Below are positions 2,141 to 24,893 of a stretch of DNA of 64,000 nucleotides, piece after piece. A program made the position numbers and the translations under genes. Positions within the stretch are counted from its first letter, which is position 1. Each line of letters begins with the position of its first letter. The DNA is from Alcaligenaceae bacterium (GTDB lineage: Bacteria; Pseudomonadota; Gammaproteobacteria; Burkholderiales; Burkholderiaceae_B), in assembly GCA_030538235.1 (NCBI GenBank), contig JAUNUJ010000008.1, positions 62,001 through 126,000 of the forward strand, in the 5' to 3' direction. The notes below the pieces were generated by a model. That model was given only the letters and a program-made list of their open reading frames with translations. It was not told the DNA's origin and made no database searches.

Positions 2141-2323
2141 TTTATTCTCCTTAAGAATCAAGATAATTAAATTAAAAAACTAAAACAAGAAAGATACTGC
2201 TTGCGATACATCCGCTGTGAAACCATCTGCCTGCCTTAAAACCGCTTTTTAAGACCAACCAAGCAAACAAATAGAAACTTAGTCAAATTTCGATGCTAAA
2301 TTCATGTGAAATTCTAACGATCG

Positions 2324-2350
2324 TAAATGACGAATTGATGACTGATTTAT
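2324..2350. promoter_or_regulatory. GTCAT-N6-GTCAT direct repeat upstream of hcp copy 2
   Basis: On the hcp strand: ATCaGTCAT, six bases, GTCATTT, matching the site before hcp copy 1 (951-975). A further GTCAT lies 22 bp from it at 2360, keeping the 11-bp phase. About 185 bp before the hcp start. Confidence 0.45.
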
Positions 2351-2462
2351 GTCAAAATCATGACTTTTGTAATATTTCAATTAACAATGACTATTAAGCC
2401 TATAAATAAAGGCTATGAGTAAAATCATAGTCAATAAACACGACAAATTAATGACATTTATT

Positions 2463-2510
2463 AAAAAAAAAGCCGTATGAACAGTTCTTGAAAAAACTGC
2501 TACATACGGC
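2463..2510 (-). terminator. Rho-independent terminator of the ddh operon
   Basis: On the minus strand GCCGTATG...CATACGGC (2503-2510 with 2472-2479) encloses a second pairing CAGTT/GAACTG and is followed by nine T residues. It sits 46 bp after the ddh stop. Confidence 0.9.
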
Positions 2511-2555
2511 CTTAACTTTCTTGAATAACGAGAAGTTTTTTTAAATTATCGACAA

Positions 2556-3542
2556 TTAAAGCATTTCTTTACGTAATTGCTCAGGCGACTTAATTGACAA
2601 TAATCCCGGCGCCACATCAAATACAGTTTTGGCTCCATATACACCCTGTTGATTCATACGGTATGCCGCTCGCGCATAGGCAACTAGGACACTGGAAGTG
2701 AAGCCCGGATTATCGCCGAGCTGTAAACCATATTCAATCACTTGATTATGCTCAGCGCGCGTGTTGCCGCTTCGAATCACAAAACCCCCATGGGGCATAT
2801 TGCGATGTTCACGTTGGAGTGTTGCTTCATCAATAAAATGAACCGTGGTGTCATACTCATCAAAGTAGTTCGGCATGGTTTTGATGCTCTGTTCAACTTG
2901 AGCTGCGTCAGCACCTTGGTCCAGCACCACATAGCACTCTCGTGTGTGCTTTTGTCGCGTATCTAGGGTCGGCCGAGCACCCGAGCGAACCTCTGTCATG
3001 GCTTGTTCCGATGGGATAGTGTACTGCACCCCGGCTTTAACGCCCTCGACACGACGAACAGCATCAGAGTGCCCCTGACTTAAGCCCTTACCCCAAAAGG
3101 TGTAGGTTTCACCATCGGGCAATACCGCCTCAGCATACAAACGGTTAAGCGAAAATAGACCCGGGTCCCAACCAACACTGATTAAAGCAGTTTTTTTTGC
3201 TGGCGCAGCTGCCGCATCGACCGTCGCATAAAACTCAGGGATTTTTGCATGGGTATCAAAACTATCCACGGTATTAAATAGCGCAGCATATTCGGGGGTT
3301 TGCTTTGGCAAATCATCTTTTGAGCCGCCGCAAAGAATTAAGACATCAATTTTGTCTTGAAAAGTCGGCAAATCAGCCATGGCAAAAACCGCGGTTTGCT
3401 CATCAACGGTCACCAACTGATCAGGAGCGCGACGAGTAAACACGCCTACTAAGCTCATATCAGGATTATGCCTAATCGCCGTTTCTACACCACGGCCAAG
3501 ATTACCGTAACCGACAATACCGATTCGAATTGATTGAGTCAC
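2556..3542 (-). CDS. ddh: meso-diaminopimelate D-dehydrogenase
   Basis: 328 aa. It interconverts meso-2,6-diaminopimelate and L-2-amino-6-oxopimelate with NADP(H) and ammonia, a one-step bypass in lysine/peptidoglycan precursor synthesis. The NAD(P)-binding motif GIVGYGNLGRG is at residues 8-18; the family-typical CGGSKDDLPKQ, SVGWDPGLFSLNR and FWGKGLSQGHSDAVRR segments follow, and the C-terminal NPGFTSSVLVAYARAA is present. Length equals the family norm. It is the last gene of a three-gene operon with an M20 hydrolase (50-bp gap) and a BASS transporter, so it may work on an imported compound and in the deaminating direction instead of, or besides, lysine synthesis. Confidence 0.9.
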   Translation of the reverse strand: MTQSIRIGIVGYGNLGRGVETAIRHNPDMSLVGVFTRRAPDQLVTVDEQTAVFAMADLPTFQDKIDVLILCGGSKDDLPKQTPEYAALFNTVDSFDTHAKIPEFYATVDAAAAPAKKTALISVGWDPGLFSLNRLYAEAVLPDGETYTFWGKGLSQGHSDAVRRVEGVKAGVQYTIPSEQAMTEVRSGARPTLDTRQKHTRECYVVLDQGADAAQVEQSIKTMPNYFDEYDTTVHFIDEATLQREHRNMPHGGFVIRSGNTRAEHNQVIEYGLQLGDNPGFTSSVLVAYARAAYRMNQQGVYGAKTVFDVAPGLLSIKSPEQLRKEML

Positions 3543-3592
3543 CAGTTAACTCCAAAATTACTTAATTAAAAAAATTATAACTACAGTGAGAC

Positions 3593-4750
3593 TTATTTAA
3601 TCGCCAGATATTGCTTGGCAATGGCGACAAAAGCCGCTGCCGCAGTCGCTAAAATCTCATCATTGAAATTGTACATTTCATTGTGTAGATAAGGCACATC
3701 CTCACCAACCCCAACAAATAAAAAGCAGCCGGGCACTTGCTCCAGATAAAAGGCAAAATCCTCCGCCCCCATGGTAGGCATATAATCCAATTTAAGCACA
3801 TCATATTCAGGCAAATGAGTGTTTAAAGCCTTAAGCACTTCCTCTACCTGCTGCGGCGGATTAACCAGTGGCGGCATGTAATTAATATGCGCCAAGTGAT
3901 ACGCGGCCCCAAACGCCTCACAATTCGCCTTGACTAAGGCCTCGATGCGCCCCGACAATTGTTCGCGCGTCTCGGCTGAGTCGCTACGAATATTGATCGT
4001 GAGCTTTGCTGTCTCTGGAATCACATTGGAAGCGGTTCCTGCATGAAAGGTACTAACCGTAATCACTCCATGCTTCAGAGGAGACTTGCCCCGCCCCACC
4101 AAGCCCTGTGTTTGTTGAACTATATTCGCGCCGATGTAAATAGGGTCTATGGCTAAATGTGGCATCGCCGAATGACCGGCCTTGCCATAAATAGTTAACT
4201 CATAGCTGTCATTACCCCCCATCGCGCTATTGGGTCTTAACAAAATTTGTTTTGCCGGATAACCGGGCCGATTATGGTAGCCAAAAATCGCCTCAACCCG
4301 AGGATTGTCCAAAACGCCCTCTTTAACCATCAAATCAGCGCCATTTCCCCCCTCTTCGGCCGGCTGAAAAATCAACTTGATGGTACCTTTAAAAGAGTCC
4401 CGATGTTTAGCAAAATAACGCGCAGCCAATAATAAGGTCGCGGTATGCCCATCATGACCGCAAGCATGCATTTTGCCCTCATGCTTTGAGGCATACGGCA
4501 AGCCGGTTTTTTCAGCAATCGGCAACGCATCCATATCGGCTCTAAAGGCAATACAGGGACCTTCTTGACTGCCTCTTAGCAGCGCAACAACCCCGGTTTT
4601 TGCAATGCCACTTTGCACCTCATAACCCAACCGCTCAAGTTCAACCTGAACAATAGCGGCCGTGCGATGCTCTTCATAACGCAACTCCGGGTGCGCATGT
4701 AGATCTTGGCGAATAGTAATCGCTTGTTGAATTTCCTCTTGACTAAACAT
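3593..4750 (-). CDS. M20 family amidohydrolase (aminoacylase/hippuricase-like)
   Basis: 385 aa. M20D metallo-amidohydrolases remove an acyl group from N-acyl amino acids. The two-metal site is visible: Asp72 in FRADMDALP, HACGHDGH at 95-102, the catalytic pair in QPAEEGG around 132-133, GYHNRPG near 158, and a C-terminal PTMGAEDFAFYLEQVPG with a metal ligand Glu. The lid domain lies in between. It sits 19 bp downstream of the BASS transporter and 50 bp before ddh. Hippurate hydrolase, N-acyl-L-amino acid hydrolase and N-acetyl-diaminopimelate deacetylase are all in this family; the adjacent ddh makes an acylated diaminopimelate or related dicarboxylic amino acid worth considering. Confidence 0.85.
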   Translation of the reverse strand: MFSQEEIQQAITIRQDLHAHPELRYEEHRTAAIVQVELERLGYEVQSGIAKTGVVALLRGSQEGPCIAFRADMDALPIAEKTGLPYASKHEGKMHACGHDGHTATLLLAARYFAKHRDSFKGTIKLIFQPAEEGGNGADLMVKEGVLDNPRVEAIFGYHNRPGYPAKQILLRPNSAMGGNDSYELTIYGKAGHSAMPHLAIDPIYIGANIVQQTQGLVGRGKSPLKHGVITVSTFHAGTASNVIPETAKLTINIRSDSAETREQLSGRIEALVKANCEAFGAAYHLAHINYMPPLVNPPQQVEEVLKALNTHLPEYDVLKLDYMPTMGAEDFAFYLEQVPGCFLFVGVGEDVPYLHNEMYNFNDEILATAAAAFVAIAKQYLAIK

Positions 4751-4769
4751 CTAGACTCCTAAACAGAGC

Positions 4770-5714
4770 TTAAAGCAAAAAATCTTTATTTTTATCCGAT
4801 TTGCCCGCCCAATATGTGGCTAGTATAGGGCCGGAAATATTGTGCCAGAAGCTGAAGATAGCACTCGGTACGGCAGTGACCGGACTGGCGGCAAAGTGCA
4901 TACCGGCTAAAGCCACCCCTAAACCTGAATTCTGCATACCGACCTCAATAGCAACTGCTTTTTGATCCGCAAAGTTCAATTTGAATAAGCGCGCACCCAA
5001 AAAACCAATGAGATAACCTAGACCATTGTGCAACACCACCACCGCAAATATCAGTAAACCGGACTCAATAATGCGGTCTTTAGAAGCGCCCACAACAAAA
5101 GCCACAATCAAAACAATGCCGATAACTGAAACTAAGGGCATGACCTCACCATATGACTCGGCCCTTTTGCCCAACACAGAGCGCACCACTAAGCCTAAAA
5201 TCACCGGTACTAAAACGATTTGTAAAATACTCTTGAACATGGCGCCAGCATTAATATCTAACCATTGACTGGCTAATAAAAAGAAAATAGCTGGAGTCAA
5301 AATCGGTGCCAAGATGGTAGACACTGCGGTACAACTAACCGATAAGGCCGTATTACCACGAGCCAGATAGGTCATCACATTTGACGCCGTACCACCGGGA
5401 CAACAACCAACCAAGATCACGCCAATAGCGATCTCGGTCGGTAGTTTAAACAGAACCGCTAGCCCATAAGCCAATAAAGGCATGATGGTAAATTGTGCCA
5501 CCGTGCCAATCAAGACCGATTTAGGTTGTTTAAGTACCCCTTTAAAATCGTCCACAGTCATGGTTACTCCCATCCCGAACATGATGATCCCTAAAATCAA
5601 GGCAATATGGGGTCCCACAAAACTAAATAATGTCGGGTTGATAAAAGCAATCCCGCCAAAAGCCAAGACCCAGAGAGCGAAAGTCTTTTGCACAAAACGA
5701 CTAAAAGAAAACAT
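4770..5714 (-). CDS. Bile acid:sodium symporter (BASS/SBF) family transporter
   Basis: 314 aa, about nine to ten hydrophobic segments. BASS proteins carry organic anions such as bile acids, pantoate or pyruvate with sodium across the inner membrane. The family signature [25 protein letters not shown] is split here over residues 101-126, and the crossover [14 protein letters not shown] region is near residue 258. It is first in the operon with the M20 hydrolase and ddh and is divergent from the AEC permease at 5891. The substrate is not given by the sequence; uptake of the compound used by the two downstream enzymes is an inference. Confidence 0.88.
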
Positions 5715-5890
5715 GATTGTTTTTCCTCAAAAAAATTCAGACCTTAAGTATATAACACAAACAATTTCTTACCTTTTAAACAAGCCTAGTAAAAAGCGCT
5801 CTTTGCCTGATAGAATGTCGTGACAAACGAAAATCGGCTTTCCTGCTTTTTTTCTTTTCTCTTCCACCTCTCTTTTCTTTGGTTGTTGTC

Positions 5891-6847
5891 ATGACTGGAT
5901 CGTTTTTTGATGCGGTGCTATTTTCCTTGGGTGTGACTTTCCCAAGTATTTTGCTGCTCTGTTTAGGTTGGTATTTACGTCGCTCTGAGCAGGTCGACCT
6001 GAAGTTTTGTGATCAGGCCGCAAAAATTGTGTTTAATTACTCCCTACCCGCCTTATTATTCTTTAGTATTTATGGCAGTAGCACGAGCTTTTTCGATAAT
6101 ATCAAAGTCGTTATGGCTGGTACGGTGTGCATTATGATGCTCTTTATTGGCGCTGAACTGATTGCACGCAAAAAAATCAAGGACCCTCGCGATCAAGGCG
6201 TCTTTGTACAGGGCGTGTTCAGAGCCAATATGATGATTATGGGACTGGCTTTTGTCAGTAGTGCTTACGGTACAGACGGTCTGGCGATTGGGGCTATATT
6301 CGGGGGCTTTTTGACTCTGTTATTAAATGTCCTAGCGGTGATTACGCTAAGCAAAGCCTCAGGAACCGGTAAATTCAATCCACTGGCTATGGCGCGACAG
6401 ATCATCACTAACCCCTTAATTATTGCTATTATTGCTGCGCTCATTTTCAAATCTATCAACCTGCCGGTATCACCTCTTATTGCTGAGGCAGGTCGCTATG
6501 TCGCTGCGTTGGCCTTACCCTTGGCCTTGATCTGCGCCGGTGCCACCTTAGATTTTAAACGCATCTTTAACACCTCTGATATTTCATTATGGGCTAGTAT
6601 CGGCCGTCTAATCGTCGCTCCCATTGTGGCGATAATCGTTGGGTTGGCCTTTGGTTTAGACAGTATGACCATGGGCGTGATGTTATTGATGACCGCCTCT
6701 CCGGCAGCTGCCGCGAGCTATGTTATGGCCAAAGCGATGGGCGCTAATGACGTGGCGGCCGCCAATATTATCGGTCTGACCACGGTAGGAGCTATGCCGA
6801 CCATTGCCATTAGCCTAACCGCCTTGCGCTATTTTGGTCTGGTCTAA
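5891..6847 (+). CDS. AEC family permease (auxin efflux carrier-like)
   Basis: 318 aa from the ATG at 5891; a TTG at 5879 in frame would add four residues, and neither has a good Shine-Dalgarno. About ten hydrophobic segments with the family features: an N-terminal LCLGWYLRRSEQ, the half-repeat FNYSLPALLF with its conserved proline, and a C-terminal TASPAAAASYVMAKAMGAN. AEC permeases export or import small carboxylates such as malate or malonate. It is a single gene, divergent from the BASS operon, and converges on ttrBCA. The substrate is unknown. Confidence 0.85.
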   Translation: MTGSFFDAVLFSLGVTFPSILLLCLGWYLRRSEQVDLKFCDQAAKIVFNYSLPALLFFSIYGSSTSFFDNIKVVMAGTVCIMMLFIGAELIARKKIKDPRDQGVFVQGVFRANMMIMGLAFVSSAYGTDGLAIGAIFGGFLTLLLNVLAVITLSKASGTGKFNPLAMARQIITNPLIIAIIAALIFKSINLPVSPLIAEAGRYVAALALPLALICAGATLDFKRIFNTSDISLWASIGRLIVAPIVAIIVGLAFGLDSMTMGVMLLMTASPAAAASYVMAKAMGANDVAAANIIGLTTVGAMPTIAISLTALRYFGLV

Positions 6848-6933: not shown

Positions 6934-7060
6934 ATAAAAAACCGGTCAACTCATAAGAATTGACCGGTATAAAGAACGGCAAACCCTATAGGGGGAGCCA
7001 TCGGGTTCGCCGACTCAAGGGAATAATGAATGCGAGGGCCCTTGAGCGATCCCCCTCCCC
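6934..7060 (-). ncRNA. Candidate structured small RNA downstream of ttrA
   Basis: About 125 nt on the minus strand between the ttrA stop and a Rho-independent terminator. Visible pairings: CTCAAGGG (7046-7039) with CCCTTGAG (7021-7014); CGGCGAACCC (7012-7003) with GGGTTTGCCG (6986-6977), ten pairs with one G-U; and 5' GGGGGA (7055-7050) with TCCCCC (6996-6991), which lies inside the loop of the previous stem, so the two form an H-type pseudoknot. A competing small hairpin TCGG/CCGA is also possible. A promoter-like sequence stands just upstream (7065-7093). The C-rich loop resembles loops by which small RNAs bind ribosome sites. It may instead be the 3' UTR of ttrBCA. I recognise no known RNA family. 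Confidence 0.5.
6941..6968 (-). terminator. Terminator of ttrBCA / RNA candidate
   Basis: Perfect nine-pair stem ACCGGTCAA/TTGACCGGT with a 10-nt loop, followed on the minus strand by TTTTTTATTT. Strong intrinsic terminator. Confidence 0.9.
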
Positions 7061-7064
7061 TTCT

Positions 7065-7093
7065 ATTCTACATTTAGATCGCTATGCCTTCAA
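7065..7093 (-). promoter_or_regulatory. Promoter-like sequence inside the 3' end of ttrA
   Basis: TTGAAG and TAGAAT are separated by exactly 17 bp on the minus strand, 4/6 and 5/6 matches to the sigma-70 hexamers. Start of transcription would fall near 7058, immediately before the G-rich 5' arm of the structured RNA. Confidence 0.4.
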
Positions 7094-10000
7094 GTTTGGC
7101 AGGAAGTCCGTTACGAACAACTGCTCCGGACACACTATCAACCCAAAAGTTTTCATGATTTCTAGTCGGATCAGTCAAACCCATTTCGTTAATATTGACA
7201 CCGGCCCGAATAAATGGAGCATCCGGCCATTTATGGTCACCGATTTGGTGCGTCCGCCCGCCTAACTCCGTGTGACCGAAACCATGCTCAATTCCTATCG
7301 TGCCGCGCTTAACGCCCGGGTACACAATGACTGTGCCCTCAACCGAACCGCCCGGAGTCGAGACTTTCGCCTGCTGACCGCTGCTCAAACCAAAACGACT
7401 CGCATCGTCTGGGTGAATAATCATCGGATTATCCGGCTTTAAAATGGTCAGAGACGTGCCGATGGTATAAGGACTCAATAACTGCGACTTGAAACTGACT
7501 AGCAACAATGGCCATTCTTCCTCGGTGTAAATCTCACGCATCGGCGTACCATCTGAGAAATGAGGCTCACGGAACTGTGCTGTACCCCAGTTAAACTCAC
7601 CGTTTAAATAGTTTCTGGAACTACCCACGTTTTCATTCCAAATCCATAGAACATTTTTAAAGCGATGCTTTTGCCACTCGGGATTCTGTTTATCCTGCGC
7701 CTCATCAGCGTTCTCAAAACGACCACCTCGACTATAGAGATAAGCAGTTTTGCGCCATTCTTCAGGCTTCAGTCTAGACTCCAAATCCGCTCGCATCCGC
7801 TCAACACCGGAGAACTCAAGATCCTCATCAGTCGCATCGGCGACCGGAGTACCGGTGTAGGCGATATTTGCGCCGCCGCGGAAGTACCAGTCTTCAGCCG
7901 TCTCTAAAGGCACTGGATTACCGTCAGCATCTTTTAATCCCTCTGGACCGAAGCCCGGCAAACCCATATACTTTGCTAGCTCGATATGAAAGCTCTCTAC
8001 AGCAATCGGTTGACCATTGGGTGTCTTGGCAGCCGCTGCCTCAACAACCGGCCAACGTGCAGCCATGGCTTTCGTCGGCACCCCATTCCACGGCGAGACC
8101 CAACCCCAGCTTTCGTATAACAAGCTATCCGGCACAATGTAGTCAGCGTAGCAGTTACTTTCATTGATAAACGGGTCAATCGAGACGATTAAAGGGATTT
8201 TCTTCGGATCCATGAGCTGATCTTCGAACTTTTTCTTTAAACCAGCGATACCGTACACCGGATTACACATCCATAAAATCAAAGCATCTAATTTATATGG
8301 ATTATCGATGGCGATTGATGCTAACCACTCGGTTCCTAAACCGGGAGCATTCGGGTACCACTGAGTCGAGGCCGGATAAGGACTCTCACCCGCTTCTTTG
8401 CGGCGCTTAAACTCGCTGGTACGCTCATAAGGCACGTTACGACCCAAAGGGATACCACGAGGTTGAACCTTGCCTTCAAAATCAAGCAGATTGTAGCGAG
8501 GACCGGCTGCAGCATCTCTGAAACCACCACCGCCCATCACAAAACCGCCCTTGGTATTCAAGTTACCAATCAAGGTATTTAACGTTACTACGCCAAAGGC
8601 ATTATAGAAGCCGTTACCCGACATCATGCCGCCGTGGGCCACAATACTGGCCTTGGTGCCATGCGACGTAAACTCTTCAGCCAAGCCTTCAATCACAGCC
8701 ACCGGGATACCGCAGTACTTAGAAGCTTCCTCAATGGTTTGACGCATCGCTGACTCTTTTAAGAGCTGCAAAGCAGTTTTAACTTGTATGTCTTTGCCAT
8801 TAACTAATAAGCCTTCAGGCGCTTCCAATTGAGCCGGGCTCATTAAATTAATCGCTGATTCGAACTCATTGTTCTCATTTAATACAATATAGGGGTCATC
8901 ATCACCGTAACGCTTATCCTCTTCGAGCTCGACGCCGATATCAGAGCCGCGCAGATACTTACCAAAACGAGGATGCGATTTATCCTGAATAACCAGCCAA
9001 GATGCGCTACAGTAAGAAGGAAAGCCTTTGGATTCCGCGTATTCAGGATTAGCACAAGATAAATACGTCTTATTATGGCGATCATTTTCAAAAATCCAGC
9101 GCATCATTGCCATTAATAGAGCGCTATCAGTACCGGGTACAATCGGTACCCAGTTCGAACGGTCACCGGCGGCACGGCTATCGGCATTACTCAAGACCGG
9201 ATCAACAATCACATAATCCACTTCGCCATCTGTACGTGCTTTGGCAATTAACTCACCGGTACGACGGAAGGGGTTACCGGTAGCACCGGGGGCGGTACCG
9301 ATAAAAATGATGAACTCTGTATTGTCCATATCAGGTTTAGCATGCGGCATCGCACGATGGTCGCCGAAGACAGCACCGGAACCGGAACGCCATGAACCAC
9401 CACACCACGAGCCGTGACGAACAAAGTTTTGAGTGCCAAAAGACTGATTCCAGAAGCGACGAATCAATGCTTCACGACCATCGTTAACCGAGGTTATGAT
9501 GCCGACCTTGTTAGCTATCGGACCGAACTCCGGTGACTCTGCCTTAATCGGGGTCGTCAAGTCGCGCAACTCTTTGAAGCCCTTAACATGGCCTTCACCA
9601 AATAAATCTCCGCCATCAGCTACTTCACGAATCAACTGCTCAAAAGAAATCGGCTCCCATTGACCCGAATTACGTGGACCGACGCGCTTTAGAGGTTGTA
9701 AGACACGGAACGGTGAGTTGTGATGCTCTTTGACCGCGTTACCGCGGCCACATAAGGTGGCGCGATTGGTCTGCCCTAAGTCCTGGTGTTGAGAGGTCGC
9801 GATAAAACTATCCTTGACCGAGGTCTCATAAGGAATGTGATTGGCCGCCGCTAAGGGGTGATACGGATTACCGCCAACCCGTAATACTTGACCTGTTTCC
9901 TTGTCAACACGTACGCGCACACCACATATAGTTGTACAGCCTAGACAAGTGGTGTAACTCACTTGCTGCTTAGGGTTTAAGGTAATTTCACCGGTTTCTT

Positions 10001-10166
10001 TGTTAACACGATACTCAGGCTCGTATGAAAAACCATTTAATTTATCTTCTTTGGGATCTTTTTTGCTAAGTACACTTTGACCCATACGGCTAAGAGTCTG
10101 TGAGAAACCTAGCGCTCCGGCCGCTAAGCCACCGGCAGCAATCAATTCTCTACGCTTTAATTTCAT
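7074..10166 (-). CDS. ttrA: Tetrathionate reductase-like molybdopterin subunit A
   Basis: 1030 aa, close to TtrA size. The catalytic subunit of a periplasmic Mo-bis-MGD reductase for anaerobic respiration on tetrathionate or a related oxyanion. Residues 1-24 hold a Tat-type signal with twin Arg at 5-6 (KRRELIAAGG). Cys74, Cys77, Cys81 and Cys139 fit the N-terminal [4Fe-4S] site. The HGSWCGGSW segment supplies a likely Cys ligand to molybdenum. The C-terminal domain binds the cofactor (LVSFKSQLLSPYTIG). AGGAG precedes the ATG. Last gene of ttrB-ttrC-ttrA, the same order as in Salmonella. Arsenate or selenate reductases of the same branch are the main alternative. Confidence 0.8.
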   Translation of the reverse strand: MKLKRRELIAAGGLAAGALGFSQTLSRMGQSVLSKKDPKEDKLNGFSYEPEYRVNKETGEITLNPKQQVSYTTCLGCTTICGVRVRVDKETGQVLRVGGNPYHPLAAANHIPYETSVKDSFIATSQHQDLGQTNRATLCGRGNAVKEHHNSPFRVLQPLKRVGPRNSGQWEPISFEQLIREVADGGDLFGEGHVKGFKELRDLTTPIKAESPEFGPIANKVGIITSVNDGREALIRRFWNQSFGTQNFVRHGSWCGGSWRSGSGAVFGDHRAMPHAKPDMDNTEFIIFIGTAPGATGNPFRRTGELIAKARTDGEVDYVIVDPVLSNADSRAAGDRSNWVPIVPGTDSALLMAMMRWIFENDRHNKTYLSCANPEYAESKGFPSYCSASWLVIQDKSHPRFGKYLRGSDIGVELEEDKRYGDDDPYIVLNENNEFESAINLMSPAQLEAPEGLLVNGKDIQVKTALQLLKESAMRQTIEEASKYCGIPVAVIEGLAEEFTSHGTKASIVAHGGMMSGNGFYNAFGVVTLNTLIGNLNTKGGFVMGGGGFRDAAAGPRYNLLDFEGKVQPRGIPLGRNVPYERTSEFKRRKEAGESPYPASTQWYPNAPGLGTEWLASIAIDNPYKLDALILWMCNPVYGIAGLKKKFEDQLMDPKKIPLIVSIDPFINESNCYADYIVPDSLLYESWGWVSPWNGVPTKAMAARWPVVEAAAAKTPNGQPIAVESFHIELAKYMGLPGFGPEGLKDADGNPVPLETAEDWYFRGGANIAYTGTPVADATDEDLEFSGVERMRADLESRLKPEEWRKTAYLYSRGGRFENADEAQDKQNPEWQKHRFKNVLWIWNENVGSSRNYLNGEFNWGTAQFREPHFSDGTPMREIYTEEEWPLLLVSFKSQLLSPYTIGTSLTILKPDNPMIIHPDDASRFGLSSGQQAKVSTPGGSVEGTVIVYPGVKRGTIGIEHGFGHTELGGRTHQIGDHKWPDAPFIRAGVNINEMGLTDPTRNHENFWVDSVSGAVVRNGLPAKLEGIAI

Positions 10167-10182
10167 TTTAATAACTCCTAGA

Positions 10183-11271
10183 TTAATTCTCTTCTAATTC
10201 AAGCTGTCTTAAAGGCACCAGGGAAGTAATCACTATGTAGACAAAGACACATAAGCCCAAAGTACCGACAATACCCAATAAACCGTCCGGGCCCCAAGGT
10301 AAGGTGTAGCTATAAGAGCCTGCACCGGTCTTTGGAATTTCCTGACCACCCATAAATACGGTCCAACGGAACATCCAAACAGTAATCACAGTAAGTAGAC
10401 CGAGTAACAGACCATTGCCGGGGAAGCGCCAAGCTAATAACAAGGTCGCAAAGATAATAGTCACCCCAACGATTGTGAATAACTGCCATTGCTTAATAAA
10501 GGTTAATAAATTCATGGCTTGGGCAATTTTCGGACTCAGACCGCTAAAACCTAGTAACAACCAAATACCGCCAACCACCACAATGGCTAATTGAGTCCAA
10601 AAAATAACTTTTACTAAAGGGGTGGTAACGGTACGATTACTACGATTCTCAGTAAAGAAGTTAAGAATTAAGGCCGCCCCTGCCGCACCCGCCATGGCAG
10701 TCAAGGCAAACTGAATCGGTACAGCAAAGTTATTCCACATTGGACGCGCTTTAATCACGGCCACTTCCATACCGGTATAAATCATCACTAGAACCGCACC
10801 GATAAAGGCTAAGCCAGCGGTAAATTTAATTAAGCCATGCTTTGGTTGTGAGCGCAGCGCTAGCAAACCGGCAATTTTCGAATAACGATGATTAGTTGCT
10901 GCTGACTCTTTTAATAAAGGCTGCAAGGCTAAAAAGCCGTAAATCAACATCCAGACCACAAAGAACACTAAGAAAATAGAACCCCAAGACATCCAAGACG
11001 TCGCCTGGAAATGCAGATAGAAGTTCAAAAAACGTCCCGGTTGATGCAAGTCAGCCAATAGCGCCACCGGCGCAATCAAACCACAGGTCAACATAAGAAT
11101 GAGTGCGTAATTTGAGGGCACCTTCCACTCGGTTTTTTTAAAGACTACGCCCGGTAAAGATAATAAGAATGAGCAATAACAAATTCCGATTAAGAAGAAA
11201 TACTGCACTGCCCATGGCAACCAACCCACCTTGTGGGTGATGTTTAAGGTTTCAATAATTTGTGCTTCCAT
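10183..11271 (-). CDS. ttrC: NrfD-type membrane subunit of the reductase
   Basis: 362 aa with about nine hydrophobic segments. NrfD/TtrC proteins anchor the complex in the inner membrane and take electrons from quinol for the iron-sulfur subunit. Seen: WLPWAVQYFFLIG near residues 18-30, LLADLHQPGRFLNFYLHFQATSWMSWG around 72-98, which is typical of NrfD, and a hydrophobic remainder. GAGGAAAG precedes the ATG at 11271. It lies 17 bp after ttrB and 16 bp before ttrA, so the three are co-transcribed and probably co-assembled. Confidence 0.85.
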   Translation of the reverse strand: MEAQIIETLNITHKVGWLPWAVQYFFLIGICYCSFLLSLPGVVFKKTEWKVPSNYALILMLTCGLIAPVALLADLHQPGRFLNFYLHFQATSWMSWGSIFLVFFVVWMLIYGFLALQPLLKESAATNHRYSKIAGLLALRSQPKHGLIKFTAGLAFIGAVLVMIYTGMEVAVIKARPMWNNFAVPIQFALTAMAGAAGAALILNFFTENRSNRTVTTPLVKVIFWTQLAIVVVGGIWLLLGFSGLSPKIAQAMNLLTFIKQWQLFTIVGVTIIFATLLLAWRFPGNGLLLGLLTVITVWMFRWTVFMGGQEIPKTGAGSYSYTLPWGPDGLLGIVGTLGLCVFVYIVITSLVPLRQLELEEN

Positions 11272-11288: not shown

Positions 11289-12062
11289 CTATGCCTTAGC
11301 CGTTTCGCCACGATTGCGAGGCTTCCATAAGGTGCTGTCACCTTCGATCTTGTCTGTGAATCGATCGTCTAAACCGATGTAATAAACACGTGGTTCGGTT
11401 TTCATCTCAGGTTTAAGCACTTTAAGCTCACCTTTGTGCGCTTCCATGCGTTGACGAATTTCACTATTCGGATCATTTAAATCACCGAAAATACGCGCGC
11501 CGCCCACACACGTCTCAACGCAACCCGGTAATAAGCCGGCATCAACACGGTGTAAGCAGAAAGTGCATTTATCTGCTTTGTGAGTCACCGGATTAATAAA
11601 ACGCGCATCATAAGGACAGGCTTGTACGCAGTAAGCACAGGCGACGCAGCGATCGCTATCGACCACGACGATGCCGTCTTTACGCTTAAAGGTAGCACCC
11701 ACCGGACACACTGGCACGCAGGGCGGGTTATCACAGTGATTACATAAGCGAGGTAAAACATAGGCGCCGGCTTGTTGTTCAGCTGGATTGTCCGACATTT
11801 TCACGCTATACGAAGAAACGATAGTTCTAAAATTACCCTCGGGCACGGCATTTTCTTGGATACAGGTCATGGTACAGGCCTGACAACCAATGCATCGACG
11901 CACGTCGATTAACATGGCCCAGTATTTGCTCGCATCGTCGGGGGTGGAGGCTTTAGCCATCATCGGCATTGCAACTGCACCGGCCGTCACGACAGGGATA
12001 CCTTTTAAGAAGCTTCGGCGCGTCTTTTGGACTTGCTCTTGGCAATTGATGTGAGTGTTCAT
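11289..12062 (-). CDS. ttrB: Iron-sulfur electron-transfer subunit B
   Basis: 257 aa. It passes electrons from the membrane subunit to TtrA through four [4Fe-4S] clusters. Residues 14-20 carry a Tat motif, RRSFLKG, followed by a hydrophobic stretch ending MAKA, so it is exported. Four cysteine sets are visible: CIGCQACTMTC, CNHCDNPPCVPVC, CVACAYCVQAC and CTFC...CVETC. It is the first gene of the operon; its upstream region holds an FNR-like box and a 16-bp palindrome. Other DmsB/NrfC-like subunits look alike, so the specific name rests on operon order and on the TtrSR-like regulators nearby. Confidence 0.85.
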   Translation of the reverse strand: MNTHINCQEQVQKTRRSFLKGIPVVTAGAVAMPMMAKASTPDDASKYWAMLIDVRRCIGCQACTMTCIQENAVPEGNFRTIVSSYSVKMSDNPAEQQAGAYVLPRLCNHCDNPPCVPVCPVGATFKRKDGIVVVDSDRCVACAYCVQACPYDARFINPVTHKADKCTFCLHRVDAGLLPGCVETCVGGARIFGDLNDPNSEIRQRMEAHKGELKVLKPEMKTEPRVYYIGLDDRFTDKIEGDSTLWKPRNRGETAKA

Positions 12063-12138
12063 TGTTAACTCCTTTTATCTATGTAACCATTCTAGAGTTA
12101 GGGTTATCACTTGCCTATTAGAACTTTTTGCCGCTCAA

Positions 12139-12154
12139 TAGATGAAATCATCTA
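12139..12154. promoter_or_regulatory. 16-bp palindrome upstream of ttrB (candidate TtrR operator)
   Basis: TAGATGA-AA-TCATCTA, a perfect 7-bp inverted repeat, lies 77-92 bp before the ttrB start. Its place between the FNR-like box and the gene fits an activator or response-regulator site. Binding by the TtrR-like protein encoded at 20906 is an inference. Confidence 0.4.
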
Positions 12155-12189
12155 GTTTCGTGGGTTTTTACGTACAATCCTGCTTAGAC

Positions 12190-12203
12190 TTGACCTAGAT
12201 CAA
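12190..12203. promoter_or_regulatory. FNR/ANR-type anaerobox
   Basis: TTGACCTAGATCAA matches the FNR consensus TTGAT-N4-ATCAA at nine of ten positions. It is centred about 134 bp from ttrB and 122 bp from the FAD oxidase gene, so it could serve either direction. FNR control of ttrBCA is known in Salmonella. Confidence 0.65.
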
Positions 12204-12318
12204 TTACTATAAAATGGCAAAATACCAGCTATTAACCATAAAAAAACGCTGTATTCTGTACTTGCGCTTTTAACTGGGTAAAATGATTTTCATTACCCTA
12301 TTGAATAAGGACTCATCG

Positions 12319-13689
12319 ATGGCACCACAAGAACAATTTCTTCAAGCAACTGCTGAGCTTCAACAAATCCAGGACGAAAGCTTATATACGCAGTATTTAA
12401 AGGACTTTACCGATGTCAAACCGGGCAAACCTTTAGCTGTCTTTCGTCCCAAGAGCACCGAACAAATCGCCGCCATTATGCGCGCTTGTACTGAGTACGG
12501 TATCAAAGCAGTGGTTCAGGGCGGTCTCACCGGTTTAGCTGGGGGTGCAACGGTCAAAGACGGCGAAGTCATCATCAATCTGGGCCAAATGAATCAACTT
12601 GTTGAGTTTGATGAGATCGGTGGTACGGTCTGTGTAGAGGCCGGTATGGTACTGGAAGAATTATGTCAATTAGTCGAAGCTAAGGACTGGTATTTTCCAT
12701 TGGATTTAGGGGCTCGGGGCAGCTGTCGCATTGGTGGCAATGTCAGTACTAACGCCGGCGGCAATCGCGTCTTGCGCTATGGCACCACGCGCGATTTAGT
12801 GATGGGCATTGAGGTAGTTCTACCTGACGGCACAGTAGTCAATATGCTCCGTCGTTTAATCAAGAACAATACCGGTTTAGACTTAAAGCATATTTTTATC
12901 GGTACTGAGGGACGCTTTGGGATTATTACCCGAGTTATGTTACGACTCTTCCCCAAACCACAGCGTCGCTATTCGGCTCTATTAGCGATGAATAGTTTTA
13001 GCCAGATCACGGACTTATTGAAATCCGCTCGCTCCACCCTAGCTCAGCTATCCAGTTTTGAAGTCATGTGGAAGAACTACATTAGCGTTGCAGCTGAAGT
13101 CACTGATAGTGACATACCATTTGGCGGCGACTATGAGCATTATGTTCTGATTGAGATTGAAGGCGCTGATGATGAGCAACTCGAAGCCAATTTCCAGCGC
13201 TTTTTGGAAAATGCCATTGAACAAGGATTAGCCGACGACGCCATTATTCCGCAAAACATAGCACAGGCCCAAGCCCTGTGGGTCTTGCGCGATGCCGCCG
13301 CAGAATCCATGCGAGCACGCGCGCCCTACTTGGCTTTTGACATCGGCATTCCGCTCAAGGATATGCCCAGTTTTATTGAAGAAGCGGAAGCGGCGATTGC
13401 CGAAGCATATCCGAGCATTGAGTGCCAGCTATTTGGTCATCTAGGCGATGGTAATTTACACTTGACCACCGCCAGAATGCGCGAAGAAGATTATATTCCG
13501 GTCGAAGAGCTGGTTTACAAAATTGTCGAAAAATACAAAGGCAGTATTACCGCCGAGCACGGTATCGGGGTGATTAAGAAACCTTTCTTACACCACAGTC
13601 GCACTGAGGAAGAACTGCACTTGATGGAGCAAATCCGTCAATTACTAAACCCGAACAATACCCTCAATAATGACCGTGTTATTGATTAA
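12319..13689 (+). CDS. FAD-linked 2-hydroxyacid oxidase (GlcD/D-lactate dehydrogenase family)
   Basis: 456 aa. The family oxidises D-lactate, glycolate or D-2-hydroxyglutarate and passes electrons to quinone or another acceptor. The PP-loop FAD domain shows VVQGGLTGLAGGATV and GGNVSTNAGGNRVLRYG; the cap domain ends with FGHLGDGNLHL, and EHGIGVIKK near the C-terminus is typical. I start at 12319, where AAGGA stands seven bases upstream; an ATG at 12283 would add twelve residues. It diverges from ttrBCA over an FNR-like box, so it could feed electrons to anaerobic respiration. The true substrate cannot be read from the sequence. Confidence 0.85.
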   Translation: MAPQEQFLQATAELQQIQDESLYTQYLKDFTDVKPGKPLAVFRPKSTEQIAAIMRACTEYGIKAVVQGGLTGLAGGATVKDGEVIINLGQMNQLVEFDEIGGTVCVEAGMVLEELCQLVEAKDWYFPLDLGARGSCRIGGNVSTNAGGNRVLRYGTTRDLVMGIEVVLPDGTVVNMLRRLIKNNTGLDLKHIFIGTEGRFGIITRVMLRLFPKPQRRYSALLAMNSFSQITDLLKSARSTLAQLSSFEVMWKNYISVAAEVTDSDIPFGGDYEHYVLIEIEGADDEQLEANFQRFLENAIEQGLADDAIIPQNIAQAQALWVLRDAAAESMRARAPYLAFDIGIPLKDMPSFIEEAEAAIAEAYPSIECQLFGHLGDGNLHLTTARMREEDYIPVEELVYKIVEKYKGSITAEHGIGVIKKPFLHHSRTEEELHLMEQIRQLLNPNNTLNNDRVID

Positions 13690-20870: not shown

Positions 20871-20907
20871 AAAACTCGCTATCTACACAATGGATAGCGA
20901 GTTTTTT
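20871..20907. terminator. Bidirectional terminator between putP and ttrR
   Basis: AAAACTCGCTATC...GATAGCGAGTTTTTT; the A and T flanks give U-tracts on both strands. The minus-strand side overlaps the ttrR stop codon. Confidence 0.92.
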
Positions 20908-21538
20908 AATCCAGACTATGGGGATCAGCTTTGAGCATCAGGTGAGCCAACTCGGCAGCACTACTGATCTCGGCCTTTTCCATAATGTTTTGGCGATGGA
21001 TATGGACGGTTTTCTCACTGATCTGCAGTTGTTGAGCAATCAGTTTATTGGATTGACCCCGAGCTAATAAATTGGCCACTTCAGACTCTCTGGGCGAAAG
21101 ACGTTCGAGAATTTCTTTAGCCTCCTGCTGGCGCAGCAGATTTTCTCTTGCTTGTTGAGCAAAGCGCACCGCCGCCGCCACCTCATCTAATAAGGTCTGA
21201 TCTTTGAAGGGTTTACTGAGAAAACCATAAGCTCCGAGTTTCATGGCTTGCACTGCCATTTCGATATCACCATGACCGGTCAGGAAAATAATCGGTGTAC
21301 TCCAACCCAAGTCATTTAACTTTAACTGCAATTCCATGCCGCTCATCATCGGCATACGGATATCCAACAAGATACAACCCGCTTCTTCCTGAGGAATAGG
21401 ATAGGCATCAAGAAACTCGGCAGCCGAGGCAAAGGCCTCGACTCGCCACTCTAAATCTTCTAATAAAAACACTAATGAGCGACGAAAAGCATCGTCGTCA
21501 TCAATAACAAAGACCAAATTAATATCAACGGCTTCCAT
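20906..21538 (-). CDS. ttrR: Two-component response regulator, FixJ/TtrR type
   Basis: 210 aa. An N-terminal receiver domain has the acidic pocket VIDDDDAF (12-19), the phospho-acceptor Asp59 in LLDIRMP and Lys in LSKPF. The C-terminal LuxR-type helix-turn-helix (LSPRESEVANLLARGQSNKLIAQQLQ... KTVHIHRQNIMEK) binds DNA. The gene follows the TtrS-like kinase by 53 bp on the same strand, so the two form a pair. TtrR activates ttrBCA in Salmonella; here the reductase operon is about 9 kb away. A FixJ or TodT-like regulator for the linked DASS transporter is an alternative. Confidence 0.8.
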   Translation of the reverse strand: MEAVDINLVFVIDDDDAFRRSLVFLLEDLEWRVEAFASAAEFLDAYPIPQEEAGCILLDIRMPMMSGMELQLKLNDLGWSTPIIFLTGHGDIEMAVQAMKLGAYGFLSKPFKDQTLLDEVAAAVRFAQQARENLLRQQEAKEILERLSPRESEVANLLARGQSNKLIAQQLQISEKTVHIHRQNIMEKAEISSAAELAHLMLKADPHSLD

Positions 21539-21591: not shown

Positions 21592-23442
21592 CTACTGAGC
21601 GGGCAAACTCAGCGTAAAAGTTGCACCGCTTAAGGCTTTTAATGAGCTCTCGCTAGGTAACACATCAACCTCCAATTTGCCTCCATGAGCTTCGGCAATG
21701 GTTCGGCAGACGGACAACCCTAATCCCAAGCCCTCTTTTTTGCTGGTATAAAAGGTTTCGAACAAATTTTCATACGCTTCTTCAGAAAGGCCCGGACCAC
21801 TATCTTGCACGCTAATATGCACCTGCTGTTCAGAATGCCACAAGACCATATGAATGATTTGCATCTTCACCTCAGCTTCTAGCATCGCATCATAGCCATT
21901 TTTTAATAAATTGATTAGGGCCTGCTGAATCTGCACCGGGTCAACGGTAAGAATTTTACTGGCGCCTAAAAAATCAAAAACCAAAATCGAGGGAGGCATT
22001 GACAGCATACCGCTAATTAATTGCACTGCCTCTTCACAAACCTCCTTGATATTGACTGGTTCCAATCGCATCGGTCGCTTGCGAGCAAATGCCCTGACCC
22101 CCTGAATAATACTGGAGGCTCGTTCAGTTTGTTCTGTAATCTCGGCAGTAGCCATGCGCAAATCATCCTCGTTTAAACGCTGACTGTCAAGGCGTCGTAA
22201 CACGCTTCTGGAGTAATTACCAATAGTCGCTAAAGGCTGATTCAGTTCATGAGCCAAGGTGCCCGACATTTCCCCCAAAATCACCAACTTCGCTTGGTGA
22301 TTAGCTTGCTCTTGGACTTCATTAATACGGTCCTGTAAGGCTTTTTGTTGTGCCAATGCATGCTCTAGAGCCGCCGTCCGCTTGCTGACTAAATAACGCA
22401 CTCGTGCCGTATAAAGACCACCAATGGCGACTAAAAACAGGGCCCCAGCCAAGACCCACCAATAGCGTTTAAAATAATCGACCAACAAGGGGCCTTTAGG
22501 ACTAAAAACACCAAGCTCCAACTCTCTGAACAACTCATTTAGTGCCTTGGTATTAGACAAAACTGACCAATACATCTCGCCACTACCACTATCAGATGGC
22601 GGCAACTGCAGTAAACTCTGCATAATATCGCGGGTCTCAACAAGACGGTCGTTCTCGATCCCGGCAAAAACCCAACCGGGATAAAGTCGGGTGGTCACAT
22701 GACAGGGAAAATTTGGATTTCCGGTGGCTTCAATAACACTAAAATGCTGCTCCCAGTTGGGCACCGATTCCAACACACAAGCACGAAGCACCCCGGTATC
22801 AGCCTCGCCGCTTGCTACTGCCTTGAGGACATTGCTCATAGGAAAGTCGACTTGCTTAAGCTGCATTTCCACTTCAGGTTCAATGTTACGAGCTCTTAAT
22901 TCTCGCCACATCACCCGATAACCCCCAAAGGCCTCCCTACTGACAATAGCCATGCTACGGCCGGGTAAGTCTTCAAAAGTCACAATCTCGTGATTATCCT
23001 TGCGCTTAATCAACGTCGATCCTAGGCTTAAGGACGACAGCTTATCGGCAGCGTAGACCTGAGACAGCATATGATTGATGCCATACTCATAATGCAACAA
23101 GGAATACAGACCCGGGTTGCTGATCAGATAGTCGACTGCTTTAGTCCGCACCATCTCGACAATCTCATCATGTACTGCGGGGATAAATTCAAAATCATAT
23201 TGGGGCAAATTATCAGTTAACCACTGTATCGTAGCTTGCCACTCTTCCATCGTACGATCAGCGCCTAAGTAACTGAGTGCAGCGATTCTGATCGGCTCTG
23301 CTCTGGCTTGGTTGATTTTGTTTATAGACGGCGCAGGCTCGGTCCTCTGCTCAGACGCCAGACTGTGACTCTGGGCGGATAAAGCACCCGCCCAGACTGT
23401 CATTAAAATGAATAATATTGCTCTAACAAAGCACTTTACCAA
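21592..23442 (-). CDS. ttrS: Sensor histidine kinase with PhnD-like periplasmic domain, TtrS-like
   Basis: 616 aa from a proposed TTG start at 23442, where GGAAGG stands eight bases upstream; the frame also allows GTG 23460 and TTG 23463. A signal segment (ILFILMTVWAGALSAQS) leads to a phosphonate-binding-like sensor domain containing YLISNPGLYS, AFGGYRVMW and FPCHVTTRLYPGWVFAGI, which match Salmonella TtrS motifs. A membrane helix near residue 330 and a coiled coil precede the H-box (GEMSGTLAHELNQPLATIG) and ATPase domain (LKNGYDAM, GLGLSVCRTIAEAHGG). The start overlaps the transporter stop by 7 bp, implying coupled translation. Confidence 0.8.
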   Translation of the reverse strand: MVKCFVRAILFILMTVWAGALSAQSHSLASEQRTEPAPSINKINQARAEPIRIAALSYLGADRTMEEWQATIQWLTDNLPQYDFEFIPAVHDEIVEMVRTKAVDYLISNPGLYSLLHYEYGINHMLSQVYAADKLSSLSLGSTLIKRKDNHEIVTFEDLPGRSMAIVSREAFGGYRVMWRELRARNIEPEVEMQLKQVDFPMSNVLKAVASGEADTGVLRACVLESVPNWEQHFSVIEATGNPNFPCHVTTRLYPGWVFAGIENDRLVETRDIMQSLLQLPPSDSGSGEMYWSVLSNTKALNELFRELELGVFSPKGPLLVDYFKRYWWVLAGALFLVAIGGLYTARVRYLVSKRTAALEHALAQQKALQDRINEVQEQANHQAKLVILGEMSGTLAHELNQPLATIGNYSRSVLRRLDSQRLNEDDLRMATAEITEQTERASSIIQGVRAFARKRPMRLEPVNIKEVCEEAVQLISGMLSMPPSILVFDFLGASKILTVDPVQIQQALINLLKNGYDAMLEAEVKMQIIHMVLWHSEQQVHISVQDSGPGLSEEAYENLFETFYTSKKEGLGLGLSVCRTIAEAHGGKLEVDVLPSESSLKALSGATFTLSLPAQ

Positions 23443-24893
23443 TAGCCCAACACCTTCCACCAAATAGCACCGACCGAGAGGAAGATAATCAGGTTAACGA
23501 CACTCATCACAAAACCGGCCTTCCACCACTCACCCAGCGTAGTATACCCTGAGCCAAAGATCACCGGCGAGGTGCCGGTTGCATAGTGAGTTAAGGTCAT
23601 CATAATACTGGATGCCGCTGCCATCATCAACGCATAAAGCATGGGTGGCGCACCCAAAGCCACGCCGGCGGTATAGAAAGCAGCAAACATGGCAGTAATA
23701 TGCGCGGTTGTACTGGCAAACATATAGTGAGCATAGAGGTAAGCCAACAGCAGTAAACCACTGGAAACTAACCAGTTCAAACCGAGTCCGCCGATACTGC
23801 TTTCAAGCGCACCCGAGAACCAAGCGATCAAGCCTAATTTATTCAAGAAAGTCGCCATCATCACCAAAGCCGCAAACCAGGTAACCGTATCCCAAGCGTT
23901 ACGCTCAGTAACCACATCTTCCCAGCTCAAGACGCCGGAAATCAGTAACAAGGATAAACCAATAAATGCGGTCGTGGTGGCATTAACCGCCACTGCCGGA
24001 CCAAAAATCATAGCCGGAATACCTGCCCAAAGTAATAATAAAATGGCAAAAATTCCGCACATAATGTATTCACCGCGCGTCATCGGCCCCTTTTCCTTGA
24101 GTCGCTCAAAAGCAAATTCCGCCGAATTGGGTGTGGCTTTAATTTCCGGTGGGTACATCATATAAATTACCAATGGCATTATCGCCATAGCGACCAGACC
24201 CGGCAACAACATGGCCAGAGCCCAAGTGCCCCAAGTCAAATGAATATCCATATTAGTTGCTTCAGCGACCAAATTAACCACTAAGGGATTAGGTGCAGTC
24301 GCTGTCACAAACATCGCCGAAGAAATCGGGTTGCAATGATAATTCACTAAGGCCAGAAACTTACCCATACGACCCTCAGTTCCTTTTTCAGGATCTGAAT
24401 CATAGGTATTGGCAATAGAGCGCACTAAGGGGTGAATAATACCACCGCCACGCGCCGTATTACTCGGTGTTACCGGGGCCAGAATCAGTTCTGTGATAGC
24501 AAGACTATAAGCGATACCAATGGTTTTTCTACCCCAGAGCGCAATAAAATAGTAACCGGCGCGCTCTCCCAGTCCGGTTTTAATAATGCCTCTAGAAATC
24601 ATGATAGAGACACCAATTAACCAGATAAGCGGATTTGCAAAACCACTGAGCGCATCACTAATCGCTGCAGAGGGTTTATCCGCAGTTACCCCGGTGACCG
24701 CCACTAAGGTGATAGCCAGTATAGACAGCGCACCAATCGGCATAACTTTACCGATAATTGCGGAGATCACTCCGACAAACATACCGAGCAGAGTCCACGC
24801 CTGTGGCGATACGCCTTCAGGTAGGGGAATAACATAAATAATAATTAAAGCTAAGGCAATAGAGATAACCGCAGGAATAGGTCTGAAGCCCAT
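23436..24893 (-). CDS. DASS/SLC13 family anion transporter (CitT-like)
   Basis: 485 aa with about twelve hydrophobic segments. DASS proteins move di- and tricarboxylates or sulfate with sodium or by exchange. The family SNT motif is visible in VTPSNTARGGGIIHPL, with the second-half TTAHITAMFAAFYTAGVALG and HYATGTSPVIFGSGY segments; the loop NYHCNPISSAMFVTATAPNPLV is typical of CitT/2-oxoglutarate-malate translocators. It is first in an operon with the TtrS-like kinase and the regulator, overlapping the kinase start. That linkage suggests the kinase may sense the transported anion. The substrate is unknown. Confidence 0.85.
   Translation of the reverse strand: MGFRPIPAVISIALALIIIYVIPLPEGVSPQAWTLLGMFVGVISAIIGKVMPIGALSILAITLVAVTGVTADKPSAAISDALSGFANPLIWLIGVSIMISRGIIKTGLGERAGYYFIALWGRKTIGIAYSLAITELILAPVTPSNTARGGGIIHPLVRSIANTYDSDPEKGTEGRMGKFLALVNYHCNPISSAMFVTATAPNPLVVNLVAEATNMDIHLTWGTWALAMLLPGLVAMAIMPLVIYMMYPPEIKATPNSAEFAFERLKEKGPMTRGEYIMCGIFAILLLLWAGIPAMIFGPAVAVNATTTAFIGLSLLLISGVLSWEDVVTERNAWDTVTWFAALVMMATFLNKLGLIAWFSGALESSIGGLGLNWLVSSGLLLLAYLYAHYMFASTTAHITAMFAAFYTAGVALGAPPMLYALMMAAASSIMMTLTHYATGTSPVIFGSGYTTLGEWWKAGFVMSVVNLIIFLSVGAIWWKVLGYW

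Follow-up and report, generated by a model that had tools for sequence, protein, structure and literature searches.

A structured RNA behind the ttrBCA-like operon of Oligella, proposed to act as a small RNA and retained at loci where the operon genes are missing

A structured RNA was found at the 3' end of a ttrBCA-like operon in a 64,000-nucleotide stretch of Alcaligenaceae DNA (the window), and in three related genomes the same RNA directly follows the operon's promoter, with the ttr genes missing from the locus. From this genome comparison we consider it likely, with a probability of about two in three, that the RNA is a trans-acting, probably Hfq-dependent small RNA (sRNA) of an anaerobic or tetrathionate regulon, which would be a ttr 3'-end product or a stand-alone gene depending on the genome.

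The operon and the fold of the RNA in the window

The three operon genes scored best against the NCBIfam models for TtrA, TtrC and TtrB, in each case under the curated cut-off (Table 1), and the ttrB-like protein also passed the DsrO model (226.4 bits, cut-off 200), so that tetrathionate is given here as the likely substrate. The TtrA of named Oligella records was 91% identical to that of the window, from which the genus was taken to be Oligella. The genome of the window also carries a second ttrA-like gene (G000:C9:327696-330809; 44% identical); no copy of the RNA was seen behind it by eye, and the covariance model described below gave no second strong match in this genome. Elsewhere in the window, on the minus strand, a TssB-like gene lies between two similar Hcp-like genes (349-846, 1007-1558 and 1655-2161; by eye), and the three may belong to a type VI secretion cluster.

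Table 1. Features of the RNA, its host operon and the neighbouring genes in the window.
Feature	Position	Strand	Remarks
Small RNA, ~125-130 nt	6934..7064	minus	probable 5' end near 7064-7056; 3' end at the terminator U-run
5' G-tract AGGGGGA	7050..7056	minus	pseudoknot strand; alternative partner is the P1 loop (CCCUC)
Hairpin P1, 8 bp	7014..7046	minus	strands 7046-7039 and 7021-7014
P1 C-rich loop CCCUCGCA	7038-7031	minus	likeliest seed (predicted)
Stem P2, 10 bp	6977..7012	minus	CGGCGAACCC 7012-7003 with GGGTTTGCCG 6986-6977, one G-U
P2 loop UCCCCC	6996-6991	minus	pseudoknot partner of the G-tract
Pseudoknot, 6-7 bp	7055-7050 with 6996-6991	minus	GGGGGA with TCCCCC; one extra A-U possible
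Intrinsic terminator, 12-bp stem and U-run	6935..6968	minus	stem 6968-6941; terminator scan
Promoter-like pair TTGAAG / TAGAAT	7065..7093	minus	7093-7088 / 7070-7065, 17-bp spacing; unconserved, probably chance
ttrA-like molybdopterin reductase	7074..10166	minus	host gene of the 3'UTR; NCBIfam TtrA best, 1101.7 bits, cut-off 1750
ttrC-like (NrfD family)	10183..11271	minus	NCBIfam TtrC best, 184.8 bits, cut-off 314
ttrB-like Fe-S protein	11289..12062	minus	NCBIfam TtrB best, 337.2 bits, cut-off 416
Operon promoter	12089..12203	minus	FNR-type box, palindrome, TAGAAT; same module directly ahead of the sRNA in G166-G168
FNR-type box TTGATCTAGGTCAA	12203-12190	minus	one deviation
Palindrome AGATGATTTCATCTA	12153-12139	minus	kept in 7 of 7 ttr/sRNA promoters compared
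TAGAAT	12094-12089	minus	operon promoter
glcD-like FAD oxidase	12283..13689	plus	divergent flank, locus marker; model score below cut-off
Auxin-efflux-carrier-type permease	5879..6847	plus	convergent flank, locus marker; Mem_trans over cut-off, NCBIfam below
Regulator	20906-21538		best models FixJ, then TtrR (under cut-off)
Sensor kinase	21592-23463		TtrS best model (under cut-off)

The RNA is positioned as a 3'UTR-derived sRNA should be, between the ttrA stop codon and the operon's terminator and on the same strand, and this was likewise the case in O. ureolytica and O. urethralis. Behind the stop codon follow, in this order, a G-rich tract, P1, P2 and the terminator. The 8-bp hairpin, the 10-bp stem, the GGGGGA/TCCCCC pairing and the terminator that had been described in an earlier note on this DNA were all present. 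A competing hairpin, TCGG/CCGA, also described there, was present in the window but unformed in the three genomes without the operon at the locus (G166, G167 and G168; alignment, by eye). A small protein encoded within the RNA was dismissed: the frame from the ATG at 7001-6999 has 16 codons, and the ATG is missing in G166-G168 (alignment, by eye).

The 143-nt stretch, terminator included, folded at -58 kcal/mol, compared with -41.2 ± 3.8 kcal/mol for shuffled sequences (z -4.4; 0 of 200 as good). Because the terminator adds to this score, relatives were needed, and five of them folded singly gave z values of -3.6, +0.3, -2.9, -1.9 and -5.0, the value of +0.3 belonging to G168, where the folded stretch had the terminator cut off. 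In the pseudoknot-free minimum for the window (-54.9 kcal/mol) the 5' G-tract paired with the P1 loop and the P1 3' strand, whereas P1, P2 and the terminator alone reached -47.9 kcal/mol.

Homologues and compensatory changes

The earlier note had recognised no known family, and the search of the window against Rfam (15) agreed, with 0 matches at the gathering threshold. The best match below it was nse_sRNA (22.3 bits, threshold 75); this and the sub-threshold matches to sR40 and MicF were judged to be chance. By blastn, 21 of 268 family genomes had a match: the genome itself, G166-G168, which gave the only other strong matches (78-80% identical), and 17 with short matches (E 0.007-0.05) that were taken as chance. 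O. ureolytica (L028) and O. urethralis (L030) likewise had homologues downstream of ttrA; in the genomes assigned to these species, G169 and G170 respectively, the sequences around the RNA were the same as in the named records (by eye). The RNA is not a mobile repeat, being single-copy in its own genome (blastn; five other matches at E 0.56 or worse), and plasmids and phages gave no match.

A covariance model (R1) built from six sequences (the window, G166, G167, G168, L028 and L030) matched six of the eight genus genomes at 82-133 bits, the window at 6942-7063 (G000:C8:68942-69063; 125.9 bits). No RNA was found with R1 in the outgroup, G164, or in G165, whose contig starts within ttrB at the locus (by eye), which makes the missing RNA there uninformative. 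Outside the genus R1 gave no convincing match among the 268 family genomes, under stricter filters that lose weak matches; the candidates in G014 (26.5 bits, E 0.002; phage-like genes by eye, P1 unaligned) and G089 (21.8 bits, E 0.02) were no more than expected by chance over 268 genomes. Four weak matches within the genus (17-21 bits), two on the opposite strand of the same locus (G167, G000) and two elsewhere (G166:C211, G000:C9), were taken as chance terminators.

A second, ttr-free copy was observed in O. ureolytica (L042 1501-1612, minus strand; G169:C79:41516-41627; 41.3 bits). It lies near a nuoN-like gene and resembles the G166 form most (both by eye). A shorter terminator, AGCCUU...AAGGCU with a U-run, is possible there by eye and was not listed by the terminator scan; neither an FNR box nor the palindrome of the operon promoter was found at the L042 locus.

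The earlier note had staked its structure on compensatory base changes in homologous loci, and these were present. With the structure of the window as the reference, towards which the percentages are biased, 92.2% of 206 cells paired in a six-sequence alignment and 95.2% of 187 cells in a five-sequence alignment. The latter comprised the window, G166, G168, G167 and L042, both ttr-linked reference copies being left out; with four sequences in common the two alignments are not independent, and together they sample six sequences and one extra copy from a single genus. In the six-sequence alignment 8 of 35 pairs had changed on both sides, compared with 1-4 in slid controls and 4.1 ± 1.5 in shuffles (5 of 500 reached 8); in the five-sequence alignment it was 8 of 38 pairs, compared with 0-2 in slid controls, and 0 of 500 shuffles reached this number. 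Further pair types did not rise above the shuffles, 495 of 500 of which reached the count in the six-sequence and 185 of 500 in the five-sequence alignment.

The pairs changed on both sides were found in P1 (3 of 8), in P2 (2 of 10) and in the terminator stem (two); the pseudoknot had one compensatory change (G-C to A-U in L042, five-sequence alignment), its other pairs being mostly invariant. The CCCU of the P1 loop was invariant across the six aligned sequences. P2 was broken in the ttr-linked copy of O. ureolytica and unaligned in O. urethralis; in the latter both a CTAGCAG/CTGCTAG stem at a shifted position (by eye) and a shifted leader pairing are possible. Shuffled leaders paired equally well with the P2 loop in a share of 0.01-0.09 for five sequences, and for the ttr-linked copy of O. 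ureolytica this share was 0.77 (the row of the window excluded); for the P1 loop it was 0.004-0.15 in five of seven sequences and 0.56-0.84 in two. The terminator scan found the terminator in the window and L028 and missed it in L030, whose stem loop is longer. The compensatory changes support the P1 and P2 stems, and since P2 is disrupted in one ttr-linked reference copy and possibly shifted in the other, the pseudoknot is regarded as no more than plausible.

Loci without the operon and their promoter

Whereas in the window the permease and glcD flanks enclose ttrBCA, in G166, G167 and G168 the permease, the sRNA and glcD share a contig, and the stretch between them contains no ttr-like ORF. 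The contig of G167 carries the permease at 2184-3134 (plus), the RNA at 3147-3266 (minus) and the glcD-like gene at 3527-4885 (plus); the arrangement in G166 is the same, its contig stopping within glcD, and in G168 an additional gene sits between the permease and the RNA. This gene (L009 3-1298) has an HATPase_c_4 domain, and repeated CGCGGTAATC-like units were observed past its end, at ~1300-1430. A ttrA more than 90% identical was present in three of the eight genomes; G166 and G168 gave no ttrA match at E <= 1e-20, and G167 only a 44%-identical relative, such as G000 carries too. The three assemblies are 84-93% complete, and the absence of ttr therefore refers to the locus, ttr genes elsewhere being possible. 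That three separate assemblies have the same arrangement speaks against an assembly artefact. A putative remnant of the ttrB leader in G167 was not significant (286 of 2000 shuffles).

The ttr-linked RNA of O. ureolytica was observed clustered with ttrBCA and a ttrR-like gene at a site apart from the glcD locus (L028 278-6096); a dienelactone-hydrolase-like gene follows the cluster (gene names by eye).

The module ahead of ttrB and that ahead of the stand-alone RNA were compared in seven promoters, four before ttrB (the window, G165, O. ureolytica and O. urethralis) and three before the RNA (G166-G168). All seven shared one geometry, with 50-51 bp from the FNR-type box to the palindrome AGATGRTTTCATCTA and 109-110 bp from the box to TAGAAT. 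The box was perfect in six of them, the single deviation being in the window, and the three stand-alone promoters all had a perfect TTGAT-N4-ATCAA; exact FNR boxes are rare, with 0.15 expected per 64 kb and 0 in the window. In O. ureolytica the box accompanies ttrB at a distance from glcD and is missing at the glcD locus; because the box travels with ttrB and not with glcD, it belongs to the ttr/sRNA promoter. The conserved 5' end of the RNA, GCGGAGAGGGGG, starts 14 nt past the first base of TAGAAT in G166 and G168, where TAGAAT would place the transcription start at this conserved end, and 31 nt past it in G167. In the stand-alone promoters the box, as a candidate site, lies ~115 bp ahead of the presumed start, which is farther than usual for an FNR box.

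An FNR-type protein (CxxCx5C) was found in at least seven of the eight genomes, G166-G168 included, among 18 of the 41 matches listed; G165 was the exception. The Salmonella ttrB promoter requires FNR according to an excerpt of PMC5408782, with which the box found here is consistent. ttrS was present in five of the eight genomes, among them the ttr-less G166, and was not found in G164, G167 and G168; its absence from G167 and G168 weakens the case for control by TtrR there. The palindrome AGATGATTTCATCTA, kept in G167 and G168, is a candidate operator of TtrR or of another regulator; the same excerpt states the TtrR operator of Shewanella to be unresolved (PMC5408782).

The earlier note had instead placed a private promoter within the end of ttrA, which would make the RNA of the window an independent sRNA gene. 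The TTGAAG/TAGAAT pair does exist with its 17-bp spacing and has 9 of 12 matches, the TAGAAT being separated from the G-rich 5' end by 4 nt. Promoter-like sites, however, occurred at chance density (5 in 2.5 kb, compared with 3.1 ± 1.7 in shuffles), and neither O. ureolytica nor O. urethralis had a pair of this type at the same spot downstream of ttrA, leaving one of the three ttr-linked copies with it; the sole promoter-like match in L030 falls within the RNA. We regard such a promoter as quite unlikely: the promoter conserved in these comparisons is that of ttrB, ~5 kb upstream of the RNA.

The RNA was more conserved than neutral sites. Across 15 genome pairs it was 57-90% identical, compared with 32-48% at four-fold degenerate sites of the two flank genes; among G166-G168 the values were 71-90% and 35-40%. 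The RNA of these genomes could be a neutral remnant, left when ttrBCA was recently deleted, in favour of which count the promoter and 3' end standing together without the genes and the absence of the RNA from the glcD and permease contigs of O. ureolytica itself. Such a leftover is highly improbable given that G166 and G168 agreed at 107/119 positions (90%) of the RNA but at 61/152 (40%) of the four-fold sites, and G166 and G167 at 71% and 38%, and given the compensatory changes in the RNA. The sequence just downstream had also diverged, with 17/47 bases identical for G166/G168, 24/47 for G166/G167 and 12/47 for G168/G167; upstream of the RNA G166 and G168 agreed at 176/241.

The same values bear on the view that the element works in cis only, as an elaborate 3'UTR or terminator that terminates the ttrBCA transcript or keeps it from decay and has no target of its own. 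Stable 3' structures shield mRNAs from 3' exonucleases, and an intrinsic terminator does lie directly behind ttrA. With no ttr gene preceding it in G166-G168 the RNA has nevertheless kept its identity well above that of four-fold sites, and the invariant columns include bases of the C-rich loop, so that a purely cis-acting element seems unlikely. Its retention under the same promoter without the operon genes makes an autonomous regulatory function of the RNA probable. The independent small RNA, perhaps anaerobic, that had been proposed at the outset finds good comparative support in its presence without ttrBCA in three genomes, the FNR-type box ahead of it and the compensatory changes.

In a three-protein tree (with partial proteins for G166-G168 and no permease for G164 and G165) the clade of G167, G169, G166 and G168 had a support of 100, uniting the three ttr-less genomes with O. 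ureolytica. G170 (O. urethralis) fell outside all others with a support of 76; single-gene trees of glcD and the permease left its position unresolved (supports 42-46). With the tree rooted in this way, a single loss of ttrBCA from the glcD locus would be more parsimonious than several gains at the same position, and the O. ureolytica cluster would then have been relocated or re-acquired; we tentatively infer loss rather than gain from a tree with a distant outgroup and modest supports. In either order of events the RNA does not depend on the operon.

Proposed action and related systems

In the window, O. ureolytica and O. urethralis, transcription of ttrBCA would yield the RNA as the 3' tail of the mRNA, from which an endonuclease most likely cuts it free close to the ttrA stop codon. 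In G166-G168, where no ttr gene is present at the locus and the operon promoter lies directly before the RNA, it would be transcribed as a stand-alone gene. Hfq would bind the U-run of the terminator, which is a typical Hfq site; it is encoded in seven of the eight genomes, G165 being the exception. C-rich-loop sRNAs elsewhere pair with G-rich translation starts, and the P1 loop probably pairs with other mRNAs, likeliest at such starts, while the 5' G-tract would mask either the C-run of the P2 loop, in the pseudoknot, or the P1 loop.

The 8-base complement of the P1 loop, searched as one exact pattern 2-14 bases before ATG in the eight genomes, occurred 32 times compared with 30 for the reversed control, so that no target can be named; pairing of the C-rich loop with ribosome sites, as the earlier note had suggested, is possible. 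Duplex energies with the ttrB, ttrC and ttrA starts ranged from -2.3 to -12.9 kcal/mol and the glcD start gave the best value, -15.1 kcal/mol (no shuffle control). A more specific scenario, in which ttrBCA was deleted between the promoter and the 3'UTR sRNA, the signal now ends in the RNA, and the G-tract toggles between masking two C-rich seed loops, is offered tentatively and is less probable than not.

A regulatory RNA that binds a protein or small ligand, by titration or in a riboswitch-like manner and without base-pairing, would suit the compact pseudoknotted fold, the two mutually exclusive partners of the G-tract and the null result of the target search. No Rfam family matched at threshold, however, and a riboswitch stands before or within the gene that it controls, while here no same-strand gene lies downstream of the RNA ahead of the terminator, beyond which comes a convergent gene. 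The RNA-only unit of G166-G168, which has no preceding gene on its transcript, also disfavours the ligand-sensing 3' element that had been considered earlier. We regard protein or ligand binding as very unlikely, and the base-pairing sRNA as the preferred reading. Conservation above the neutral level together with a conserved structure, as expected of a 3'UTR-derived sRNA, was found here, P2 failing in one copy.

The nearest functional analogue is NarS of Salmonella, which excerpts of PMC9438474 and PMC8139620 describe as a 63-nt anaerobic sRNA from the narK 3'UTR under FNR and NarL, bound by Hfq, processed by RNase E and shown by experiment to repress nirC. Unlike NarS as described there, the Oligella RNA is known from sequence and also exists without its operon; the two were set apart by description, and no Rfam family matches the Oligella RNA. 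For MalH/MicX, at the 3' end of the mal operon, one bacterium processes the sRNA out of a 3'UTR and another transcribes an sRNA from a dedicated promoter (excerpt of PMC9438474). This pair is the nearest evolutionary analogue, with both sRNA forms in the same place; in Oligella, by contrast, the stand-alone form uses the operon's promoter with the genes absent, and the two forms are clear homologues.

By its description in an excerpt of PMC8139620, FnrS of E. coli is a stand-alone sRNA under FNR, as the RNAs of G166-G168 appear to be. OppZ of Vibrio cholerae (excerpt of PMC9438474) is an sRNA from an operon 3'UTR like the Oligella RNA. OppZ, as excerpted, acts on its own operon, whereas the duplexes of the Oligella RNA with the ttr starts were no stronger than that with glcD. 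We know of no link between FnrS and the 3' end of a respiratory operon. Neither a ttr-linked sRNA nor an Oligella sRNA was found among the matches listed in a literature search of titles and abstract beginnings.

The Oligella RNA represents a new family of the 3'UTR-sRNA kind, absent from Rfam 15, and its distinctive point is that it is kept downstream of the operon's promoter at loci that lack the genes. Many sRNAs derive from mRNA 3' ends, and how one becomes independent is seldom visible; here, at one locus within one genus, a single RNA occurs both at the end of an operon and as a gene standing alone, with the same promoter. Its occurrence in both forms implies that the function of the RNA is separable from its host genes. 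Whether a 3'UTR sRNA works without its operon thereby becomes testable across sister species, and the RNA is a possible regulator of anaerobic metabolism in a little-studied genus.
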